A stretch of 64,000 nucleotides of DNA from Azospirillum sp. TSA2s (GTDB taxonomy: Bacteria; Pseudomonadota; Alphaproteobacteria; Azospirillales; Azospirillaceae): contig NZ_CP039645.1 of NCBI RefSeq assembly GCF_004923315.1, positions 291,001 through 355,000 on the forward strand. Direction: 5' to 3'. The notes beneath the pieces were generated by a model, which saw nothing but the letters and a program-made list of their open reading frames with translations, did not search any database and was not told where the DNA came from. The translations under genes were made by a program, and so were the position numbers. Below are positions 23,423-31,739 of the stretch, piece by piece. The first letter of the stretch is position 1. Each line of letters begins with the position of its first letter.

Positions 23423-24961
23423 TCAAACCCGTCGCGGTTCCGGGAACTCAGGCGCCGTCATGCCGGGCAGAGCCGTTTGGCCGACCATCGTTCCGGCATC
23501 CAGCCCGTCCAGAATCCGGCGGGCGGCTTCGGCGCATTGGCTGCGCAGTTCCGGCACGGCGGTCATCTCCCAGAAGGGAGCCTTGGCGACCGGACCAAAG
23601 GCGAGCAGGCGCGGGGAGGGGGTGCCGTCGGCGGCGATCACCGCACCGCCTTCCGTCACGTCCAGCCCCAGCCGCAAGGCATCCGGCCGCGCAATGCCAC
23701 GGTCGAGCAGCGAGCGCACCAGGGGATGGCGGATGCGGGTGTAGTCGCAGTTGGTGCCGGTGGCGTTGATCAGCGCGCCCGCCGTCAGCAGCCGCTCCCT
23801 CCCGCCGCCGCGCTCGACGACGGTCAGCTCCAGCCCATCGGCGATGAGTGCTGCGTCCTTCAAGCGGCCGGGCAGGATGCTCAATTGACCGCCGGCACGG
23901 GCCGCGGCGATGCGGTCGGCGACCTGCGGCGCCATGCGGTGGCGGTGCACCTCCCAAAAGGGACGGGCGTGGCGGAGGAAGCGTTGGCGTTCCTCCATCG
24001 GCAGATGCGCCCAGATGCGGTGGTGGTGAGGCCGCAGCGCGTCGAAGGCCGACCGCCAGTCATAGCCGGCAGCCGCGGCCCGCCGCGCGTCGGCCTTCAG
24101 GGCGATCAGCACGTCCAGAACCGTGCTGGGCAGCACGTCGGGATGGAGGAACGAGGTGTAGGGCCGCGTCTCCTCATGCCGCAGCGGCAGCAGACCGCGG
24201 CGCGACACGGCGGTGATCGGACCGCGGTGCCCCTGGTCGAGCAGCGTCAGAACCGTGTCCACCATGGTCAGGCCGGTGCCGAGGATCGCGACGGCGGCTT
24301 GCCCGTCGATCCTGGCGATGGCGGCGGCATCCCACGGGTCGCCGATGAAGCGCTCCGACGCGAAGGCCTCCGCCGCCGTAGGGGACGCCAGACAGGGCGG
24401 AGAGGGCGGGAAATTGCCGATGCACAGGGCCGCGGTGTCGGCGCTGACCACCCGTCCGTCGCCGAGGCGGACATGCACCGCCGGCCGGTTGCCGGAGGAG
24501 GTTTCGGTGCGAACGTCCACCGCCTCGCCGCGGATCTGGTTCAGGCGGGCATGGGCGGGAGCCTCTGCCTGTGCCTCCGCCAGGACATCCTGGATGTAGG
24601 CGCCATACAGCGCGCGGGAGACGAAGGCATGGCCGCTGGGCGGCTGGTCCGGCACCGGCCCATCCGCCCGGCTCCACAGCCAGCGCAGGAAATGGCGCGG
24701 GTCGTCGGGATAGGCGCTCATGTTGTAGGCGCGGACGTTCAGCACATGCGTGCCGTTCGGTGTCGAATAGGCGACGCCGGTTCCCGGCCGGTGGCCGTAT
24801 TCGATCAGATGGACCACCAGCGGCGCCCGGGCACCGCGCAGCAGATGGGCCGCCAGCAGGCTGCCGGTGAAGCCGGCGCCGACGACAGCGATCTGGCGGG
24901 GATGGTGGAAACTGTCCGGCGCGCTGCCGCCGGGCGGATGGAAGTGAGGCGTTGCAGGCAT
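23423..24961 (-). CDS. FAD/NAD(P)-binding protein (NAD_binding_9 type)
   Basis: 512 residues. The start has a dinucleotide-binding loop, IAVVGAGFTGSLLAAHLL, near residue 23. Next is GTGVAYSTPNGTHVLNVRAYNMSAYPDDP, a motif typical of the COG4529/PF13454 flavoproteins, and later VAILGTGLTMVDTVLTL, a second nucleotide-binding loop. Similar proteins are often found with sulfur- or nitrate-related genes, but no reaction is established for the family in general. It is divergent from the sulfonate operon across a 644-bp gap, so it may share its regulation. ATG at 24961 follows AAGGA. Confidence 0.85.
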   Translation of the reverse strand: MPATPHFHPPGGSAPDSFHHPRQIAVVGAGFTGSLLAAHLLRGARAPLVVHLIEYGHRPGTGVAYSTPNGTHVLNVRAYNMSAYPDDPRHFLRWLWSRADGPVPDQPPSGHAFVSRALYGAYIQDVLAEAQAEAPAHARLNQIRGEAVDVRTETSSGNRPAVHVRLGDGRVVSADTAALCIGNFPPSPPCLASPTAAEAFASERFIGDPWDAAAIARIDGQAAVAILGTGLTMVDTVLTLLDQGHRGPITAVSRRGLLPLRHEETRPYTSFLHPDVLPSTVLDVLIALKADARRAAAAGYDWRSAFDALRPHHHRIWAHLPMEERQRFLRHARPFWEVHRHRMAPQVADRIAAARAGGQLSILPGRLKDAALIADGLELTVVERGGGRERLLTAGALINATGTNCDYTRIRHPLVRSLLDRGIARPDALRLGLDVTEGGAVIAADGTPSPRLLAFGPVAKAPFWEMTAVPELRSQCAEAARRILDGLDAGTMVGQTALPGMTAPEFPEPRRV

Positions 24962-25193
24962 CGAAGTCCGTCCTTCCGTGAGTCATTCCGGAAAAGGCCG
25001 GCCGTTGGCGGCTGCTCCCCAGGTCCGTCAATCCGTGATCGGGTGCGGGGTTTCGCGTCGGCCGTGTGTCTGCTCGGTCCGCTTCGTTCTCTCCTGCATA
25101 TCACAGGGTCCGGACACGCGCCATCGGCCGAACGGCAAATACCATTACCAAAGTAGGAATCAGTTTATTTTCACACAGATTTGGTTTTCCACG

Positions 25194-25217
25194 TTGACTT
25201 ATAGTCCACCGTAACTG
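25194..25217 (+). promoter_or_regulatory. Possible promoter for the leader peptide and sulfonate operon
   Basis: TTGACT at 25194-25199 is followed after about 18 bases by TAGAGA, a weak -10. The surrounding 25130-25230 stretch is A/T-rich against the GC-rich background. Transcription from here would give a roughly 110-base leader before the small reading frame at 25342. No CysB-like site could be recognised with confidence. Confidence 0.35.
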
Positions 25218-25341
25218 TAGAGAATAGGGGCGAGCCCGCTTCCGGAGCCGCCGCGGCAATTTGAATCGCAGCTTGCGCCGCGTCACCAAACGCTAAAGCG
25301 CCACGATCCCGATCGTGGATTCGTCGAAGGAGTGACCGGAT

Positions 25342-25425
25342 ATGTCCATGGTCGCATTCCAGTTTTCCATCATGCCGCCTGTCGCTCCAGCCGCGCCGAT
25401 GGCGCGCTGTACCTGTCGCGCCTGA
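25342..25425 (+). CDS. Candidate cysteine-sensing leader peptide (27 aa)
   Basis: An ATG at 25342 sits nine bases behind a perfect AAGGAG and opens a 27-codon frame, MSMVAFQFSIMPPV..., that ends RCTCRA-stop. Two Cys codons lie near the end and overlap the hairpin GTCGCG-CCTGA-CGCGAC at 25415-25431. Just upstream is another hairpin, CCACGAT/ATCGTGG (25301-25318). Short leaders with clustered Cys codons are known upstream of sulfur-assimilation genes in other bacteria, where ribosome stalling at low cysteine changes downstream expression. The next gene is a sulfonate-type transporter, so the logic fits. That this one acts that way is inference. Confidence 0.6.
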   Translation: MSMVAFQFSIMPPVAPAAPMARCTCRA

Positions 25426-25605
25426 CGCGACGGGCCTGATGGTGAGCGCCTGACGCCGGGCGCCCCGCCGATCCAATCCTTCCCGGTTCCCGGACGCAGC
25501 CCCGCATTCCGTGGCTGTGCTTACCCCCGGCTTTTGCCGTGACGGCGTGCGCGATCCTTTGCGCCGCACCGGGAGACCTGCACCGATTTTAAAGGTGGTC
25601 AGTCC
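25426..25605 (+). promoter_or_regulatory. Possible attenuator region between leader peptide and sulfonate operon
   Basis: 180 bases follow the leader stop. GCGCCTGACGC occurs at 25419-25429 and again at 25446-25456, so two nearly identical mini-hairpins are tandem, offering alternative pairings. A further GC-rich structure around GTGCGC...GCGCCGCAC lies near 25550. There is no T-run, so control could act on Rho access or the ribosome site instead of an intrinsic terminator. Confidence 0.35.
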
Positions 25606-26697
25606 ATGAAACAATTCACAAAACGGATCGCCCGCTCGGTCCTGGCCGCTGCCGCCGTGCTGACGGCCGTCACCGTCGCCGGAAGCGCCGTGGCCGAACC
25701 GGTCACCATCCGCTTCGGCTTCGCCCAGGTCGGGGTGGGCAACCGCCAGTTCGGCAGCGGCAACACCGCGGCAATCCTGCATTCCAGGGGAATCCTGGCG
25801 GAGGAGTTCAGGAACGACCCCGACGTCAAACTCGACTGGTCCTTCTTCAAGGGCGCCGGTCCCGCGGTGAACGAGGCGATCGCCAACGATCAGCTCGATT
25901 TCGCCCTGCAAGGCGATCTGCCGTCGCTGGTCGGCCGATCGAACGGGCTGAAGACCAGAATTCTGGCGGCGAGCGGCCTGCGGTCGAACCTTTATCTGGC
26001 GGTGACGCCGAAGGCGGGCATCCGGTCCGTCGCCGACCTGAAAGGCCGCAAGGTGGCGCAGTTCCGCGGCACCAACCTGCAGCTGGCGACCGACAAGGTG
26101 CTGGCCGCCCATGGCCTGACCGAGCGCGACGTGAAATTCATCAACATGGACTTCGCCACCGCCACGGCCGCACTCGCCACCGGCGACATCGACGCGGCGT
26201 TCGGGCAGGCCGATTATCTGGCGCTCGACGGCCAGGGCGTCGCCAAGGTCGTCTACAGCACCCGCGGCGACGACCCGACCTTCACCCGCCATTCCCACCT
26301 GCTGGTGACGGAGGCGTTCGAGAAGGCGCATCCCGATATCACCTACCGCGTGGTGAAGGCGCTGGTGAAGGCGGCGGCCTGGGCGTCGGACGAGGCCAAC
26401 CGCGAGGCGCTGTTCGGGGAATGGGCCAAGTCCGGCGTTCCGGCCGAGACCTTCCGCGCCGATTTCGAAGGACAGGCGCTGGGCTACCGCAACAGCCCGC
26501 TGATCGACGACTTCCTCGTCGCCGCCTACCGCGATCAGGCGGAACGGGCCAAGGGCTACCGGCTGGTGCGCAGCGACGTGCAGATCGACGGCTGGTTCGA
26601 GCCCGCCTATGTCGACCGCGCCGTGGCCGAGCTGGGGCTGGCCGGCACCTGGAAGCGCTACGACGCCAAGGGGCATCAGCAGACGGCGGCGAAGTAA
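25606..26697 (+). CDS. Sulfonate/taurine-type ABC transporter substrate-binding protein
   Basis: 363 residues with a clear signal peptide (RSVLAAAAVLTAVTVAGSAVA, cut about residue 30). The mature protein matches the SsuA/TauA/NMT1-like fold: IRFGFAQVGVGN, DLPSLVGRSNGLKTRILAASGL, and VADLKGRKVAQFRGTNLQLATDKVLAAHGL. It delivers a sulfonate, taurine or related compound to the two permeases downstream. ATG at 25606 follows AAAGGTGG. Context with a TauD-like dioxygenase supports an organosulfur substrate. Nitrate or pyrimidine-precursor binding proteins share the fold, so the ligand is inferred. Confidence 0.88.
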   Translation: MKQFTKRIARSVLAAAAVLTAVTVAGSAVAEPVTIRFGFAQVGVGNRQFGSGNTAAILHSRGILAEEFRNDPDVKLDWSFFKGAGPAVNEAIANDQLDFALQGDLPSLVGRSNGLKTRILAASGLRSNLYLAVTPKAGIRSVADLKGRKVAQFRGTNLQLATDKVLAAHGLTERDVKFINMDFATATAALATGDIDAAFGQADYLALDGQGVAKVVYSTRGDDPTFTRHSHLLVTEAFEKAHPDITYRVVKALVKAAAWASDEANREALFGEWAKSGVPAETFRADFEGQALGYRNSPLIDDFLVAAYRDQAERAKGYRLVRSDVQIDGWFEPAYVDRAVAELGLAGTWKRYDAKGHQQTAAK

Positions 26698-26725: not shown

Positions 26726-27598
26726 ATGACGAACCTCGAACTGAGCCGCGGCGCCTATGAAGCCGCCCGGATCGCCGGCAGCGGACGCCTCGATCTGCGG
26801 GTGGATGATGGTAACCCGAAGCCGGCCGCCGCCGTCCTGCGGCCCATGCTGACCGCCCTTTCAGCCCTGGTCTTCCCGGCGGCCCTGCTGGGAATGTGGA
26901 CGCTGTCGTCGCATTTCGGCTGGCTGCCGGCCCAGATCCTGCCGGCACCGGATCAGGTTGCCGCCACGCTGGCCGATCTCGCCGACAGCGGCGACCTGTG
27001 GTTCCACACCCGCATCAGCCTGCTGCGCGTGGTGGAGGGCTTCGCGCTCGGTGGAGCGGCAGGGTTGTTGCTGGGCATCGCCATGGGCTTGTCACGGCGG
27101 GTGCGCTGGACCGTCGAACCGCTCTTCACCGCGCTGGCCCAGGTGCCGCCATTGGGCTGGATCCCGGTTCTGATGCTGCTGGTCGGCATAGACGAGGGGC
27201 TGAAGCTGCTCATCATCGCCAAGGCGGCGCTGATCCCCGTGGCGCTGAACACCCACAAGGGCATCCGCAACGTTCCCGACGGCCTGCGGGAGGTCGGGTC
27301 GGTCCTGACCTTCGGCCCCTGGGCGACGCTGACGCGGATCGTCCTGCCGGCGGCGGCGCCGTCGATCTTCACCGGCATACGCTATGGCCTGACCAGCGCG
27401 TGGCTGGCGCTGGTGGCGGTGGAGCTGCTCGCCTCGTCGGAAGGCCTGGGATACCTGATGGTGTGGGGCCGCCAGCTGTTCCAGCTGGACATGGTGATCG
27501 CCGCGATGCTGGTGGTCGGGCTGATCGGCTTTGCACTGGACTGGAGCCTTTCCCGGGTCGAGCGCCGCCTGCAACGCTGGGAGCTGGCCGGATCATGA
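26726..27598 (+). CDS. ABC transporter permease, SsuC/TauC family (first)
   Basis: 290 residues with about six membrane helices after a 45-residue cytoplasmic start. The binding-protein-dependent permease loop appears as EVGSVLTFGPWATLTRIVLPAAAPSIFTG, the EAA motif that contacts the ATPase. ATG at 26726 follows GGAGGAG. It is 28 bp behind the binding-protein gene and overlaps the next permease by ATGA. Two different permease genes suggest a heterodimeric channel. Confidence 0.9.
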   Translation: MTNLELSRGAYEAARIAGSGRLDLRVDDGNPKPAAAVLRPMLTALSALVFPAALLGMWTLSSHFGWLPAQILPAPDQVAATLADLADSGDLWFHTRISLLRVVEGFALGGAAGLLLGIAMGLSRRVRWTVEPLFTALAQVPPLGWIPVLMLLVGIDEGLKLLIIAKAALIPVALNTHKGIRNVPDGLREVGSVLTFGPWATLTRIVLPAAAPSIFTGIRYGLTSAWLALVAVELLASSEGLGYLMVWGRQLFQLDMVIAAMLVVGLIGFALDWSLSRVERRLQRWELAGS

Positions 27599-28380
27599 GC
27601 ACGCTCGACCATCCCGCCGCATCCCGCGTCTCGCGCCGTCTCCATGGTCTGATTCCCGTGCTGGCCCTGCTGGCCGGGTGGGAAGCCGCCAGCCGCAGCG
27701 GCCTTGTCGATCCGAAGCTTCTGCCGTCGCTGCTGACCGTCGCCGGGCGTGCGGGGCAGGAGCTGGCCGAGGGGCGGCTTGCCGTCGATGTGGCGGCCAG
27801 CCTGGCCCGCGACATCGCCGGCTTCACCATCGGCAGCCTCGCCGGCATCCTGGTCGGATTGCTGCTCGGCCTGTCGCGGCTGGCCGACCGGCTGATCGGG
27901 CCCAGCTTCAACGCCGCCAAGCAGATCGCGATCTTCGCCTGGATCCCGCTGATCTCGGTGTGGTTCGGGGTGGGGGAGGAGGCGAAGATCGCCTTCATCG
28001 CGCTCGCCGCCTTCACGCCCGTCGTGGTCAATACATGGGAAGGTGCCCGCGCCGCGCCGCCCAAGCTGGCGGAGGTCGCCCGCGTGCTGGAGTTCGGCCG
28101 CTGGCGGACCTTGCGGCTGGTCACGCTGCCGGCGGCGCTGCCCGCCATCTTCGCCGGGCTGCATCTGGGCCTGATCAATGCCTGGCTCGCCACCGTCGGC
28201 GCCGAATATTTCATGACCGTCGGTCCGGGCATCGGCGGGCTGATGACCGAAGGGCGCGAGCATTTCCACATGGACCTCGTCCTGCTCGGCGTCCTGCTGC
28301 TGGGGCTGATCGGCCTCGCCCTCAACACCCTTGCCACCCGGCTGGAAGCGCGCGCCCTGCGCTGGCGCCGCCGAGCTTAA
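27595..28380 (+). CDS. ABC transporter permease, SsuC/TauC family (second)
   Basis: 261 residues, shorter at the N-terminus than the first permease. Helices follow the same pattern, and the EAA loop reads EVARVLEFGRWRTLRLVTLPAALPAIFAG. Its ATG overlaps the stop of the first permease (ATGA), a coupling that would help equal production of both subunits. It shares only moderate identity with the first permease, so this is not a recent duplication. Confidence 0.9.
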   Translation: MSTLDHPAASRVSRRLHGLIPVLALLAGWEAASRSGLVDPKLLPSLLTVAGRAGQELAEGRLAVDVAASLARDIAGFTIGSLAGILVGLLLGLSRLADRLIGPSFNAAKQIAIFAWIPLISVWFGVGEEAKIAFIALAAFTPVVVNTWEGARAAPPKLAEVARVLEFGRWRTLRLVTLPAALPAIFAGLHLGLINAWLATVGAEYFMTVGPGIGGLMTEGREHFHMDLVLLGVLLLGLIGLALNTLATRLEARALRWRRRA

Positions 28381-28411
28381 GTCCCTGAGCCTGATAAGGA
28401 GCGTTCCCGTC

Positions 28412-29278
28412 ATGGCCGACATCATTCGACCAAGTCATCACTCCATCCACCACGCCACGGCACGCGGCGCGCTGGAGATCCGCGGACTGACCAAGCGCTA
28501 TCGCGTGTCCGGCACTCCGTTCACCGCCTTGCAGGACATCGACCTGTCGGTGGCGCCGGGTGAGTTCGTCTCCATCGTCGGCGCGTCCGGCTGCGGCAAG
28601 TCGACCCTGCTGCGCCTGATCGTCGGGCTGGAACGGCAGTTCGACGGCGACATCCGTCTGGACGGCCGTCCCATCGCCGGACCGGGTCTGGACCGCGCCA
28701 TCGTCTTCCAGGAACACCGCCTGTTCCCCTGGCTGACGGCCGAGGAGAATGTCGCGCTGGGTCTGCTGAAATCGAACCGTCCCGCCGCGGACAAGCGCCG
28801 TCTGGTGCAGGAGCATCTGGAGCTGGTGGGGCTGGGCGCCTTTGCCGGGGCCTATCCATCGCAGTTGTCCGGCGGCATGTCGCAGCGGGTCGCCATCGCC
28901 CGCGCCCTGGTCAACCGCCCGCGCATCCTGCTGCTTGACGAGCCCTTCGGCGCGCTCGACGCGCTGACCCGCAGCCACTTGCAAGCCGAACTTCTGCGCA
29001 TCGTCCGGGCGGAGGGCATCACCGCCATCCTCGTCACCCACGACGTGGAGGAGGCGCTGTATCTGGGCGACCGCGTGGTGGTCATGCACCCGCGTCCCGG
29101 CCGGATCGCCAGCATCATCCCGTCCGGCCGCCTGCCTGCGGCGGAGGATGGCAGCGGCAGCCCGCAACATGGCCATGGGCACGATCGCGCCGATCCGACC
29201 TTCGTCCGCCTGCGCGAGGCCGTGCTGGCCGAACTCGGCGCCGGACATGCACAGACGCCCGTCCGGCGAGCCGCCTGA
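28412..29278 (+). CDS. ABC transporter ATP-binding protein, SsuB/TauB family
   Basis: 288 residues. Walker A is GASGCGKST, the Q-loop VFQEHRLFPWL, the signature LSGGMSQRVAIARAL, Walker B ILLLDEPFGALDALTR and the switch His in LVTHDVEEAL. A His/Gly-rich stretch (SPQHGHGHDRAD) near residue 260 is unusual for the family. ATG at 28412 follows AAGGAG. It energises the importer encoded by the two preceding genes. Confidence 0.94.
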   Translation: MADIIRPSHHSIHHATARGALEIRGLTKRYRVSGTPFTALQDIDLSVAPGEFVSIVGASGCGKSTLLRLIVGLERQFDGDIRLDGRPIAGPGLDRAIVFQEHRLFPWLTAEENVALGLLKSNRPAADKRRLVQEHLELVGLGAFAGAYPSQLSGGMSQRVAIARALVNRPRILLLDEPFGALDALTRSHLQAELLRIVRAEGITAILVTHDVEEALYLGDRVVVMHPRPGRIASIIPSGRLPAAEDGSGSPQHGHGHDRADPTFVRLREAVLAELGAGHAQTPVRRAA

Positions 29279-29334: not shown

Positions 29335-30279
29335 ATGACGACTCTGACCGCCGACATCGCCACCCGTTCCGAGACCTCGCCGGCCGGCTTCGGCCTCGAC
29401 ATCCGTCCCATCGGCGGGCGCATCGGCGCGGAGGTGCATGGCTTCCGCCTGTCCGGCGACCTGCAGCCCGCAACCGTCCGCGCCATCCGGCAGGCGCTGA
29501 CCGAGCACAAGGTCCTGTTCTTCCGCGGCCAGACCCATCTGGACGAGGCCGAGCAGGAGGCCTTCGGCCGGTTGTTCGGCGATCTGGTTTCCCACCCCAC
29601 CGTGCCGTCGCTGGCCGGGACGGAGCATGTGCTGGACGTCGACGGCAGCCGTGGCGAGCGCGCCAGCTCCTGGCATGCCGACGTCACCTTCGTGCCGGAT
29701 TACCCGTCCATTTCCATCCTGCGCAGCGTCGTGGCGCCCGGGCGCGGCGGTGACACAATGTGGGCCGACAATGTGTCCGCCTACAACGAACTGCCGGAGC
29801 CGCTGCGCGAACTGGCGGAGAAGCTGTGGGTGGTGCACTCCAACGTCTACGATTATGTCGGCGACCGCCAGAACCGGTCGGAGCAGGCGCTGCATCGCTA
29901 CCAGACCGTCTTCACCTCCACCCGCTACGAGACAGAGCATCCGCTGGTCCATGTTCATTCGGAAAGCGGCGTGAAGGCGCTCATTCTCGGCCATTTCGCT
30001 CAGAGGATCGTCGGCTTGACCAGCACCGATTCCCGCCTGCTGCTGGATCTGTTCCAGGGTCACGCCACCCGGCCGGAGAATGTGGTGCGCTGGCGCTGGA
30101 GCCCCGGCGACGTGGCCGTGTGGGACAACCGCACCACCCAGCACCGCGCCGTCGACGACTATGACGACCAGCCGCGCGTCGTCCGCCGCGTGACGGTCGC
30201 CGGTGCGGCCCCCGTGGCGGTCGGCGGCCGCCGCAGCTTCTCCCGCTCGGTCGTCCAGGCGAACGCCGCCGCGGCGTGA
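29335..30279 (+). CDS. TauD/TfdA family 2-oxoglutarate-dependent dioxygenase
   Basis: 314 residues. The iron ligands are visible: His 114 and Asp 116 in SSWHADVTF, and His 270 in TTQHRAVDDY. The 2-oxoglutarate-binding Arg is close to the C-terminal RRVTVAG. Such enzymes hydroxylate taurine or alkylsulfonates next to the sulfur so that sulfite is released. Directly downstream of the sulfonate transporter, it gives the operon its desulfonation step. Sulfate-ester dioxygenases (AtsK) share the fold and are an alternative. Confidence 0.92.
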   Translation: MTTLTADIATRSETSPAGFGLDIRPIGGRIGAEVHGFRLSGDLQPATVRAIRQALTEHKVLFFRGQTHLDEAEQEAFGRLFGDLVSHPTVPSLAGTEHVLDVDGSRGERASSWHADVTFVPDYPSISILRSVVAPGRGGDTMWADNVSAYNELPEPLRELAEKLWVVHSNVYDYVGDRQNRSEQALHRYQTVFTSTRYETEHPLVHVHSESGVKALILGHFAQRIVGLTSTDSRLLLDLFQGHATRPENVVRWRWSPGDVAVWDNRTTQHRAVDDYDDQPRVVRRVTVAGAAPVAVGGRRSFSRSVVQANAAAA

Positions 30280-30425
30280 TGTGGCCTGGGGCGGGGGCCG
30301 CGGCATTCGCCACGGCCTCCGTCCCGCCGCCATCATCGAGGTCGCCAATCCGGCGCCGATGTGGCACATGCGATGGCGCGCACCGCCGATGCGCACGTCG
30401 TCCCATGTCCCGTCAGGAGGCTGCC

Positions 30426-31739
30426 ATGTCCGTGTCGCCCACCGCCCGCTCTTCCGCTTCCGACCGGCTGGAGGCGGCTCTCTCCCGGATTGCCGATCCG
30501 GAGCGGCAGGGCTCCCTGGTGTTCACCGAAGTCTATGCGGAGGAGGCGCGCGCCGCCGCCATGGCCAGTGACCACCGCGTCGCCCAGGGCCGGCCGCTGG
30601 GGCCGCTCGATGGGCGCATCGTCTCGGTCAAGACGCTGTTCGACGTGGCGGGCGACACCACGGCGGCCGGGTCCGCCATCCTGCGCGGCCGGCCGGCTGC
30701 GGCGCGCGACGCCCGGGCGGTGGCCCGGCTGCGGGCGGCGGGCGCGGTCATCATCGGCCGGACCCACATGACGGAATTCGCCTTTTCCGCCGTCGGCATC
30801 AACCCCCATTACGGCAATCCCGGCAATCCGCATGACCGCTCGCGGGTGCCGGGCGGCTCCTCCTCCGGGGCGGTGATCTCGGTGGCCGATGGCATGGCGG
30901 AGATCGCGTTGGGCAGCGACACCGGCGGCTCGCTGCGCATTCCGGCAGCGTTGTCCGGCGCCGTCGGCTTCAAGCCGTCCGCCGGGCGCCTGCCGGCCGA
31001 AGGGGCGTTCCCACTGTCGCCGACGCTGGACGTCATCGGGCCGATTGCCGCGACCGTTGCCGATGCGGCCTTGCTGGACAGCGTGCTTTCCGACGGCGAC
31101 ATGGCGCCACTGGCCGCGCTGCCGGTTGCCGGACAGTCCTTCCTGGTGCCGCGCGGGCGGCTGTTCGACGGCGTCGAGCCTGCGGTCGCCGCTGCGTTCG
31201 AGGCGGCGCTGGACCGGCTGCGCGCGGCCGGCGCCCACATCGCGGACGGCTCCATCGAGGCGGAATTGGAGGCGCTGGCGGAGTTGGACCGCATCGGCGT
31301 CTTCACCGCCATCGAGCTGGCGGCGACGCTGGCCGATCTCGGCATCACGGCGCTCGACGGCATCGATCCGAAGACCCGCGCGCGGATCGAGGCCGGGGGC
31401 AAGGCGCCCGCCGCCGATTATGTCCGCATGCTGCGTCGGCGCGCCGAACTGGTCCGGCTGATGGACGAGCGGCTGACCCGCCACCCGGTCCTGCTGCTGC
31501 CCACCGTGCCGATGACCGCGCCCGCCATTGCCGACGTGCTGGAGGATGCGGCCTTCCACCGCGTCAATCTGGCGCTGCTGCGCAACACCCGCGTCGCCAA
31601 CCTGGTCGACCTGCCGGCCATTTCCCTGCCGGTGCCGACCGACGGCCTGCCGGTCGGGCTGATGGCGATGGGGCGGCGCGGCAGCGACCGCAGCCTGCTG
31701 GGCATCGCCGCCGGGATCGAAGCTGCGCTGCGGGGGTGA
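30426..31739 (+). CDS. Amidase (amidase-signature family)
   Basis: 437 residues. The Ser-cisSer-Lys triad is visible: Lys 69 in SVKTLFDV, cis-Ser 146 in GGSSSGA, nucleophile Ser 169 in GSDTGGSLRIPA. Length and the C-terminal DLPAISLPVPTDGLPVGLM match small-molecule amidases such as AtzF-like and aryl-acylamidase enzymes, not GatA (no GatB/GatC nearby). ATG at 30426 follows AGGAGG. Lying 146 bp behind the dioxygenase on the same strand, it may release ammonia or a carboxylate from an amide-containing organosulfur compound. The substrate is unknown. Confidence 0.88.
   Translation: MSVSPTARSSASDRLEAALSRIADPERQGSLVFTEVYAEEARAAAMASDHRVAQGRPLGPLDGRIVSVKTLFDVAGDTTAAGSAILRGRPAAARDARAVARLRAAGAVIIGRTHMTEFAFSAVGINPHYGNPGNPHDRSRVPGGSSSGAVISVADGMAEIALGSDTGGSLRIPAALSGAVGFKPSAGRLPAEGAFPLSPTLDVIGPIAATVADAALLDSVLSDGDMAPLAALPVAGQSFLVPRGRLFDGVEPAVAAAFEAALDRLRAAGAHIADGSIEAELEALAELDRIGVFTAIELAATLADLGITALDGIDPKTRARIEAGGKAPAADYVRMLRRRAELVRLMDERLTRHPVLLLPTVPMTAPAIADVLEDAAFHRVNLALLRNTRVANLVDLPAISLPVPTDGLPVGLMAMGRRGSDRSLLGIAAGIEAALRG

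Follow-up and report, generated by a model that had tools for sequence, protein, structure and literature searches.

The window, the whole 64,000-nucleotide stretch of Azospirillum sp. TSA2s DNA that was analysed, contains a sulfonate-type operon, as a preliminary description of the same DNA had proposed. The genes encode an SsuA-type substrate-binding protein, two ABC permeases, an ABC ATPase, a TauD-family dioxygenase and an amidase, and they are preceded by a short frame with cysteine codons close to its end (Table 1). The 27-codon frame, the AAGGAG ribosome site and the RCTCRA ending given in that description were all found; the frame opens with ATG and its product is MSMVAFQFSIMPPVAPAAPMARCTCRA. 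It displays the general pattern of an amino acid leader, being short, preceded by an SD sequence and carrying its regulatory codons in repeat towards the end. No NCBIfam family matches the peptide. The Arg-Cys-Thr-Cys-Arg codon pattern was considered as a signal and rejected: there are 30 sites in the organism's own genome vs. 42 in a backwards control, so these codons alone are uninformative.

The Cys codons had been described as overlapping one of two nearly identical mini-hairpins. The two hairpins do share the 11-mer GCGCCTGACGC (25418-25428 and 25446-25456), and the overlap holds for the second Cys codon, which lies inside the upstream hairpin with the stop codon, but not for the first, which lies outside. 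Together with 45 nt downstream, the final 40 nt of the leader fold with a local z of -3.71 relative to shuffles. The whole stretch 25220-25610 is unremarkable in structure (z -1.65; 8 of 100 shuffles equally good). A C-rich stretch follows the leader. A terminator scan detected no intrinsic terminator in 24950-25700, and intrinsic termination was rejected as the output.

A putative promoter is present 5′ of these features. It was not called by a strict sigma-70 scan; in 17 genus copies of the region that were inspected, a TTGAC-N16-19 plus TAGA-like box ends 23-32 nt 5′ of the first helix, P1. About 16 nt 5′ of the -35 box is a TTCACACA-like motif (25170-25177), with similar motifs in several genus copies, and this is a possible regulator site. 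At the other end of the region, in 25560-25610, the ribosome site of the binding-protein gene, AAAGGTGG, is situated in a weak hairpin, and both orthologues show good conservation here.

Table 1. Leader region and operon: positions of features within the window
Feature	Position	Strand	Remarks
Putative promoter TTGACT-N16-TGTAGA	25194-25221	+	Resembles boxes in genus copies
SAM-II-like aptamer	25251-25300	+	RF00521 19.8 bits; model R1 109.5 bits, the window copy being itself included in R1
P1	25252-25257/25277-25282	+	6 pairs
Aptamer letters AAUUUGA; GCUUGC; CGCUAAAG	25258-25264; 25271-25276; 25291-25298	+	
Hairpin P3, CCACGAU-CCCG-AUCGUGG	25301-25318	+	7 bp, 5′ of ribosome site
Leader ribosome site AAGGAG	25327-25332	+	9 nt 5′ of ATG; similar sites in genus copies
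GACCGG, 3′ arm of possible SD-hiding helix with 3′ side of P3	25334-25339	+	Permutation tests, 68 distinct loci, 23 genera
Cys leader frame	25342-25425	+	Cys codons are nos. 23 (25408-25410) and 25 (25414-25416)
Cys-Thr-Cys codons TGT ACC TGT	25408-25416	+	Cys also at frame end in both orthologues
Hairpin CCTGTCGCG-CCTGA-CGCGACGGG	25412-25434	+	9 bp, -16.1 kcal/mol with flanks
C-rich stretch 3′ of leader	25426-25590	+	78-nt windows reach 45% C, 24% G
Second hairpin, shares GCGCCTGACGC	25446-25463	+	7 bp
SsuA-type substrate-binding protein	25606-26697	+	TIGR01728 136.5 bits, below cut-off 163.5; NMT1 domain PF09084
Two ABC permeases	26753-27598; 27592-28380	+	PF00528 in both; starts chosen by analyst
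ABC ATPase, nitrate/taurine/sulfonate group	28409-29278	+	PF00005; TIGR01184 best NCBIfam, below cut-off; start chosen
TauD-family dioxygenase	29335-30279	+	PF02668 213.6 bits; taurine dioxygenase NF007104 below cut-off
Amidase	30276-31739	+	PF01425; NF004622 506 bits, over cut-off; start uncertain

The SAM-II-like element and its distribution

A divergent SAM-II-like element at 25251-25318 is found directly 5′ of the leader's ribosome site. Its hairpin P3 is the one that the preliminary description had placed in front of the ribosome site, although membership in a larger element had been missed. The only Rfam match overlapping the element is a weak one to RF00521 (SAM_alpha) at 25243-25316 (19.8 bits, E 0.059); it does not reach the gathering score of 36, and P1 and the core letters of SAM-II are present. 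Fifteen genus copies of the R1 type are listed at 25.8-28.6 bits and others are not listed; a score of 36.2 bits belongs to a weak R1 match without leader (G032:C185). Nine genus copies checked gave six matches of 21.1-27.5 bits and three without match. Among 16 elements from the class, one passes (L168, 36.8 bits), six score 22.4-34.1 and nine have no match; for ten leader-bearing class copies, matches at E 1 or better are confined to two (L168, and L173 at 28.8 bits), with none for the other eight. Because copies score low and many lack a match, the element is, as judged from sequence, SAM-II-like and not a SAM-II member.

The motifs AUUUG, CUUGC and CGCUAAAG are invariant in all 20 copies of A1, the window included, and one A of GCUAAA is absent in three of the 68 copies of A3 (L125, L126, L135). 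In SAM-II riboswitches the core letters AUUUG, CUUGC and GCUAAA have a role in SAM binding. Over 77 distinct copies, P1 has 94.8% of cells paired, with three of its six pairs invariant, and P3 has 97.6% paired, with both-sided changes in all seven pairs. The covariation score of P3 is 0.115 vs. 0.036 for shuffled alignments (0 of 500 shuffles as high), in an alignment that was fitted to the model and leans towards P3.

Two more helices were assessed with permutations that exchanged the partner strands among loci. Pairing of L1 with the strand after P3, which would correspond to the P2 pseudoknot, scores 8.20 vs. 7.34 in the family (sd 0.22, 62 distinct) and 11.71 vs. 10.18 in the class (sd 0.25, 52 distinct), with 0 of 300 permutations as good in either; in the host genus it is unsupported (6.90 vs. 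7.02; 208 of 300 permutations as good). Pairing of the 3′ side of P3 with the ribosome site and the bases that follow it scores 15.0 vs. 12.5 (sd 0.31, 0 of 300) in a set of 68 distinct leader loci. When each of 23 genera contributes a single leader locus chosen at random (40 draws), the mean z is 4.38 for the first helix and 3.91 for the second; this test and that of the second helix cover the 98 loci in which the element could be parsed and a Cys leader is present. The 5′ arm of the possible SD-hiding helix is CCGGUC in most genus copies, and the window copy carries one A-C mismatch. On these permutation results the element resembles a SAM-II riboswitch whose P2 has gained a hairpin, with an alternative helix that would hide the leader's ribosome site.

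The element is widespread. In DNA comparisons within the genus, the region at about 25251-25350 recurs at other loci in 45 of 45 genomes (matches of about 67-178 nt, 77-91% identity). Thirty copies that were read, which include the window's own locus in three genomes, all display, in the same order, the aptamer letters, hairpin, ribosome site, ATG and a short frame that has Cys close to the stop. A covariance model built from 20 copies (R1) placed the element at 53 sites in the 45 genus genomes and, in an order draw made up of host-family genomes, in 72 of 82 genomes and 8 of 13 genera. A second model, built from 68 copies (R2), detected it in 72 of 385 genomes and 48 of 276 genera of a class draw; a phylum draw of 398 genomes, an unstated share of them outside the class, yielded 15 with the element, all within the class. 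The window's own genome has a second copy (C1:422161-422263) and also a canonical SAM-II (69.6 bits) 5′ of a gene that reads as MetZ-like. Three other loci (L196, L209, L216) display a second, same-strand SAM_alpha match about 110-120 nt 5′ of the element, and these are possible tandem riboswitches; the genes behind them are metZ by reading (L196, L216) and siroheme-synthase-like (L209).

Low or absent Rfam scores, the unsupported L1 helix in the host genus and the mismatch in the window's SD-hiding helix would all be expected if the element were a decayed or re-purposed SAM-II relative, kept as a ribosome-site cassette in an attenuator that senses Cys-tRNA only. This explanation is unlikely, however, since the core letters do not vary among the 20 copies of A1, the element is kept in 45 of 45 genus genomes and P3 covaries. 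The cysteine switch of the preliminary description stands in that a Cys leader precedes sulfur-scavenging genes, but it is incomplete: the hairpin in front belongs to a SAM-II-like element found in 45 of 45 genus genomes, so that a second input probably acts beside cysteine.

Leader peptides and genes behind the element

Leaders were counted in a family set of 89 of 107 places (49 of 53 in the genus, 40 of 54 in other genera), in which three weak matches of 24-31 bits (L122, L127, L159) and a partial one (L137) were kept, and in a class set of 60 places outside the host family, taken down to E 5.5e-10 with weaker ones excluded. In the family set, 84 copies have an ATG no more than 30 nt from the model end and 77 of these open a frame of 4-60 codons. 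Cys occurs in the last 12 codons in 76 of the 89 (76 of the 77 short frames; dinucleotide shuffles give a mean of 11.4 and a maximum of 22), and at least two Cys in 65 (mean 1.6, maximum 6); the counts become 78 and 66 if any ATG within 36 nt is allowed. Of 72 distinct peptides with Cys, 64 have the last one 0-2 codons before the stop. In the class set, 23 of 60 copies have a Cys leader and 18 have one with at least two Cys (shuffles 5.0, maximum 12, and 0.65, maximum 4). Loci with a Cys leader by the criterion used span 23 genera, with about five of the 23 such loci in the class set expected by chance. That the Cys-ending frame of the window is more than a chance feature is indicated by the recurrence of such frames behind the same element, far beyond shuffles, and by the tail z of the window leader.

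Besides Cys, Met and Arg, few positions are held in leader groups A and B. Whole-peptide pN/pS is 1.85 in group A and 0.68 in group B, which does not amount to ordinary purifying selection, and conservation of the whole peptide is therefore not claimed. A comparison of in-frame and out-of-frame Cys codons (196, 136, 19) was set aside as confounded by ATGT. In group B, the Cys codons are paired with downstream bases, with a compensating change in L103; only 51% of 68 leader tails have a fold z below -1. The gap after the leader contains 43.5% C and 27.9% G vs. 37.9% and 29.6% in the following coding sequence, a modest difference, and C exceeds G in the gap of all 52 loci. Six-codon leaders, MTCCCP and MTTCCP, are found behind the element at L139, L149 and L161, where the next gene is porin-like by reading.

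Loss of the frame or of its Cys codons in close relatives would speak against a Cys leader. Both orthologous loci (G013, G024) keep frame and Cys, with the endings CCRCCA and CCRCRRA before the stop and with a central part that has diverged, and the Cys leader is supported by this. In a third Azospirillum (G041, the same as L227), the binding-protein gene is 81% identical and no element is found upstream. Other homologues of the binding-protein gene also have no element upstream, with too little upstream sequence in L231 to judge; a 12.6-bit match in L229 lies inside the gene itself and looks like chance.

The leaders are associated with import genes and with a small protein, which in Azospirillum is roughly 66 residues long. 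Counted by profile search, since regex searches missed copies, the small protein is encoded no more than 1.5 kb from 65 of the 89 family elements, each of which has a Cys leader. Among the class copies it is behind 16 of 60 elements, 13 of them with leaders of at least two Cys; at L166, L211 and L218 it is present with no leader by the criterion used. The window operon and two loci with TauD-like genes (L109, L110) have element and leader with the small protein absent. The protein has no Pfam or NCBIfam match. An example (L105:5950-6147, minus strand) displays the pattern AxxIEVxGxxAGIVVAxxxGFxFFASD; an AlphaFold2 model (mean pLDDT 88) has three strands followed by two helices, and its best match in the PDB is only at E 1.0. 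Element and leader, ending in RRCRCRT, CRCRCRT or RRCRCRA, are also found with the small protein absent at L168, L169 and L172, and a gene that reads as MetN-like follows at L168.

MetQ/MetN/MetI-like genes, named mostly by reading, follow the small protein at many Azospirillum loci; at L107 the first of them matches PF03180 and the next ones were named by reading. In other families, one locus (L203) has the element, the leader MVCLMCPCSHRR, the small protein and genes that read as binding-protein and TauD-like, and at another (L207) a sulfate-binding gene, by reading, follows the small protein. Leaderless copies precede sulfate-binding genes (confirmed at L148) and, by reading, metZ-, metA- and MetN-like genes; MetN-like genes follow the weak matches L127 and L159. 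There is no clean split by pathway between copies with and without leader, because leaderless copies also precede a hydrolase-like gene (L156) and a binding-protein gene that falls in the window's cluster (L122).

The leaderless copies directly before metZ-like, MetN-like and sulfate-binding genes, together with pN/pS values near 1, could suggest that the frame is passive or a remnant, the aptamer ligand being the sole signal and the Cys codons idle. This is improbable in view of the 76 Cys-bearing frames among 77, against a shuffle mean of 11.4, and of the Cys retained in both orthologues. It is more doubtful still that the peptide itself is active, either as a Cys/Met-rich binder of metal or thiol or in trans like peTrpL. 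Leader residues are enriched in Cys (10.1%) and internal Met (7.1%) relative to mononucleotide shuffles (2.7% and 0.7%), but the few positions held in groups A and B and the six-codon versions argue against such a role.

Proposed two-stage control

A two-stage sulfur sensor 5′ of the sulfonate-scavenging operon, in which a SAM-II-like riboswitch would gate the Cys leader and a pause near the stop codon would control the operon, is the reading considered probable here, with appreciable doubt. The bacterium may judge its sulfur supply twice, by SAM and by cysteine, before the scavenging operon is turned on. In the first stage, aptamer and P3 would form the riboswitch and the leader's ribosome site its expression platform, so that the level of SAM, the presumed ligand, would decide leader translation.

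In the second stage, a ribosome short of Cys-tRNA would pause at the leader's Cys codons, a pause expected there since the codons stand directly before the stop and in or beside a hairpin. The paused ribosome would prevent the hairpin from closing and cover the C-rich RNA that follows. As no intrinsic terminator was found, the output would most likely be either termination by Rho or accessibility of the next ribosome site downstream. A paused ribosome would correspond to the operon being on, and quick release or no leader translation to the operon being off. Cys codons near the stop, the hairpin, the C-rich gap and the lack of a terminator fit a pause that blocks Rho or opens the next site.

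The SD-hiding helix uses the 3′ side of P3 and would compete with P3, which the L1 helix would hold, so that SAM, if it favours P3 and the L1 helix, would expose the leader's ribosome site, leader translation would repress, and low SAM or low cysteine alone would turn the operon on; but this reversed first stage is scarcely credible, as SAM would then activate the leaderless copies before metZ-like and sulfate-binding genes, which is metabolically odd. Those copies call for the opposite sign, with SAM not exposing the site.

For the two-stage sensor in general, opinion leans slightly towards a class-wide alphaproteobacterial module. A distinct SAM-II-like riboswitch, with its hairpin in P2, would gate Cys/Met leaders and apply a logic of SAM and charged Cys-tRNA to sulfur import operons and to the unnamed small protein that is usually found behind the leader, and related leaderless elements would precede methionine biosynthesis genes and some import genes.

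Comparison with known systems

The SAM-II riboswitch is described from metA and metZ leaders and met genes (PMC1273637, PMC9373788). The window element resembles it (RF00521) in a P1 with AUUUG, CUUGC and GCUAAA, in its occurrence in Alphaproteobacteria and in the sulfur genes downstream. It differs in falling below the gathering score with short indels, in the covarying hairpin P3 after GCUAAAGCG, and in the frame behind it, which is a Cys leader and not a met gene. Among the literature matches listed, and in the parts of them available, no description of a SAM-II riboswitch paired with a Cys leader was found.

The uORFC-8-2 motif is a cysS leader of Rhodobacterales with a Cys-codon frame inside a stem and a terminator-like stem followed by a U run (PMC8632094). 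Both systems are alphaproteobacterial and combine a short Cys-codon frame with a stem. In contrast to uORFC-8-2, the window has no terminator stem with U run in 24950-25700, precedes an SsuA-type gene rather than cysS, and has a riboswitch-like element in front.

In mycobacteria, cysteine-responsive attenuation reportedly depends on leaderless polycysteine frames, as Canestrari is said to have described in 2020. Cys codons in a short upstream frame are common to both; whereas the mycobacterial start is leaderless, the window frame is SD-led and lies behind a conserved RNA element. Leaders of the tnaC type exert Rho-dependent control by a pause adjoining the stop codon, with no intrinsic terminator. 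The proposed pause near the stop and the lack of an intrinsic terminator are similar here, and a role of Rho is suggested only by the C-rich gap.

Tandem attenuators are present in Salmonella mgtCBR, where two short-frame sensors occur in one leader RNA (PMC3641672). The window likewise would have two sensors in one leader RNA, but they are an aptamer and one frame, rather than two short frames, and the signals would be those of sulfur. Most work treats riboswitches and leader-peptide attenuators separately; in the present case they are stacked, and the first appears to govern whether the second is read. With this layout, the logic by which a metabolite signal is combined with one from tRNA can be examined in simple fusions, and the stacked element and leader point to an uncharacterised small protein.
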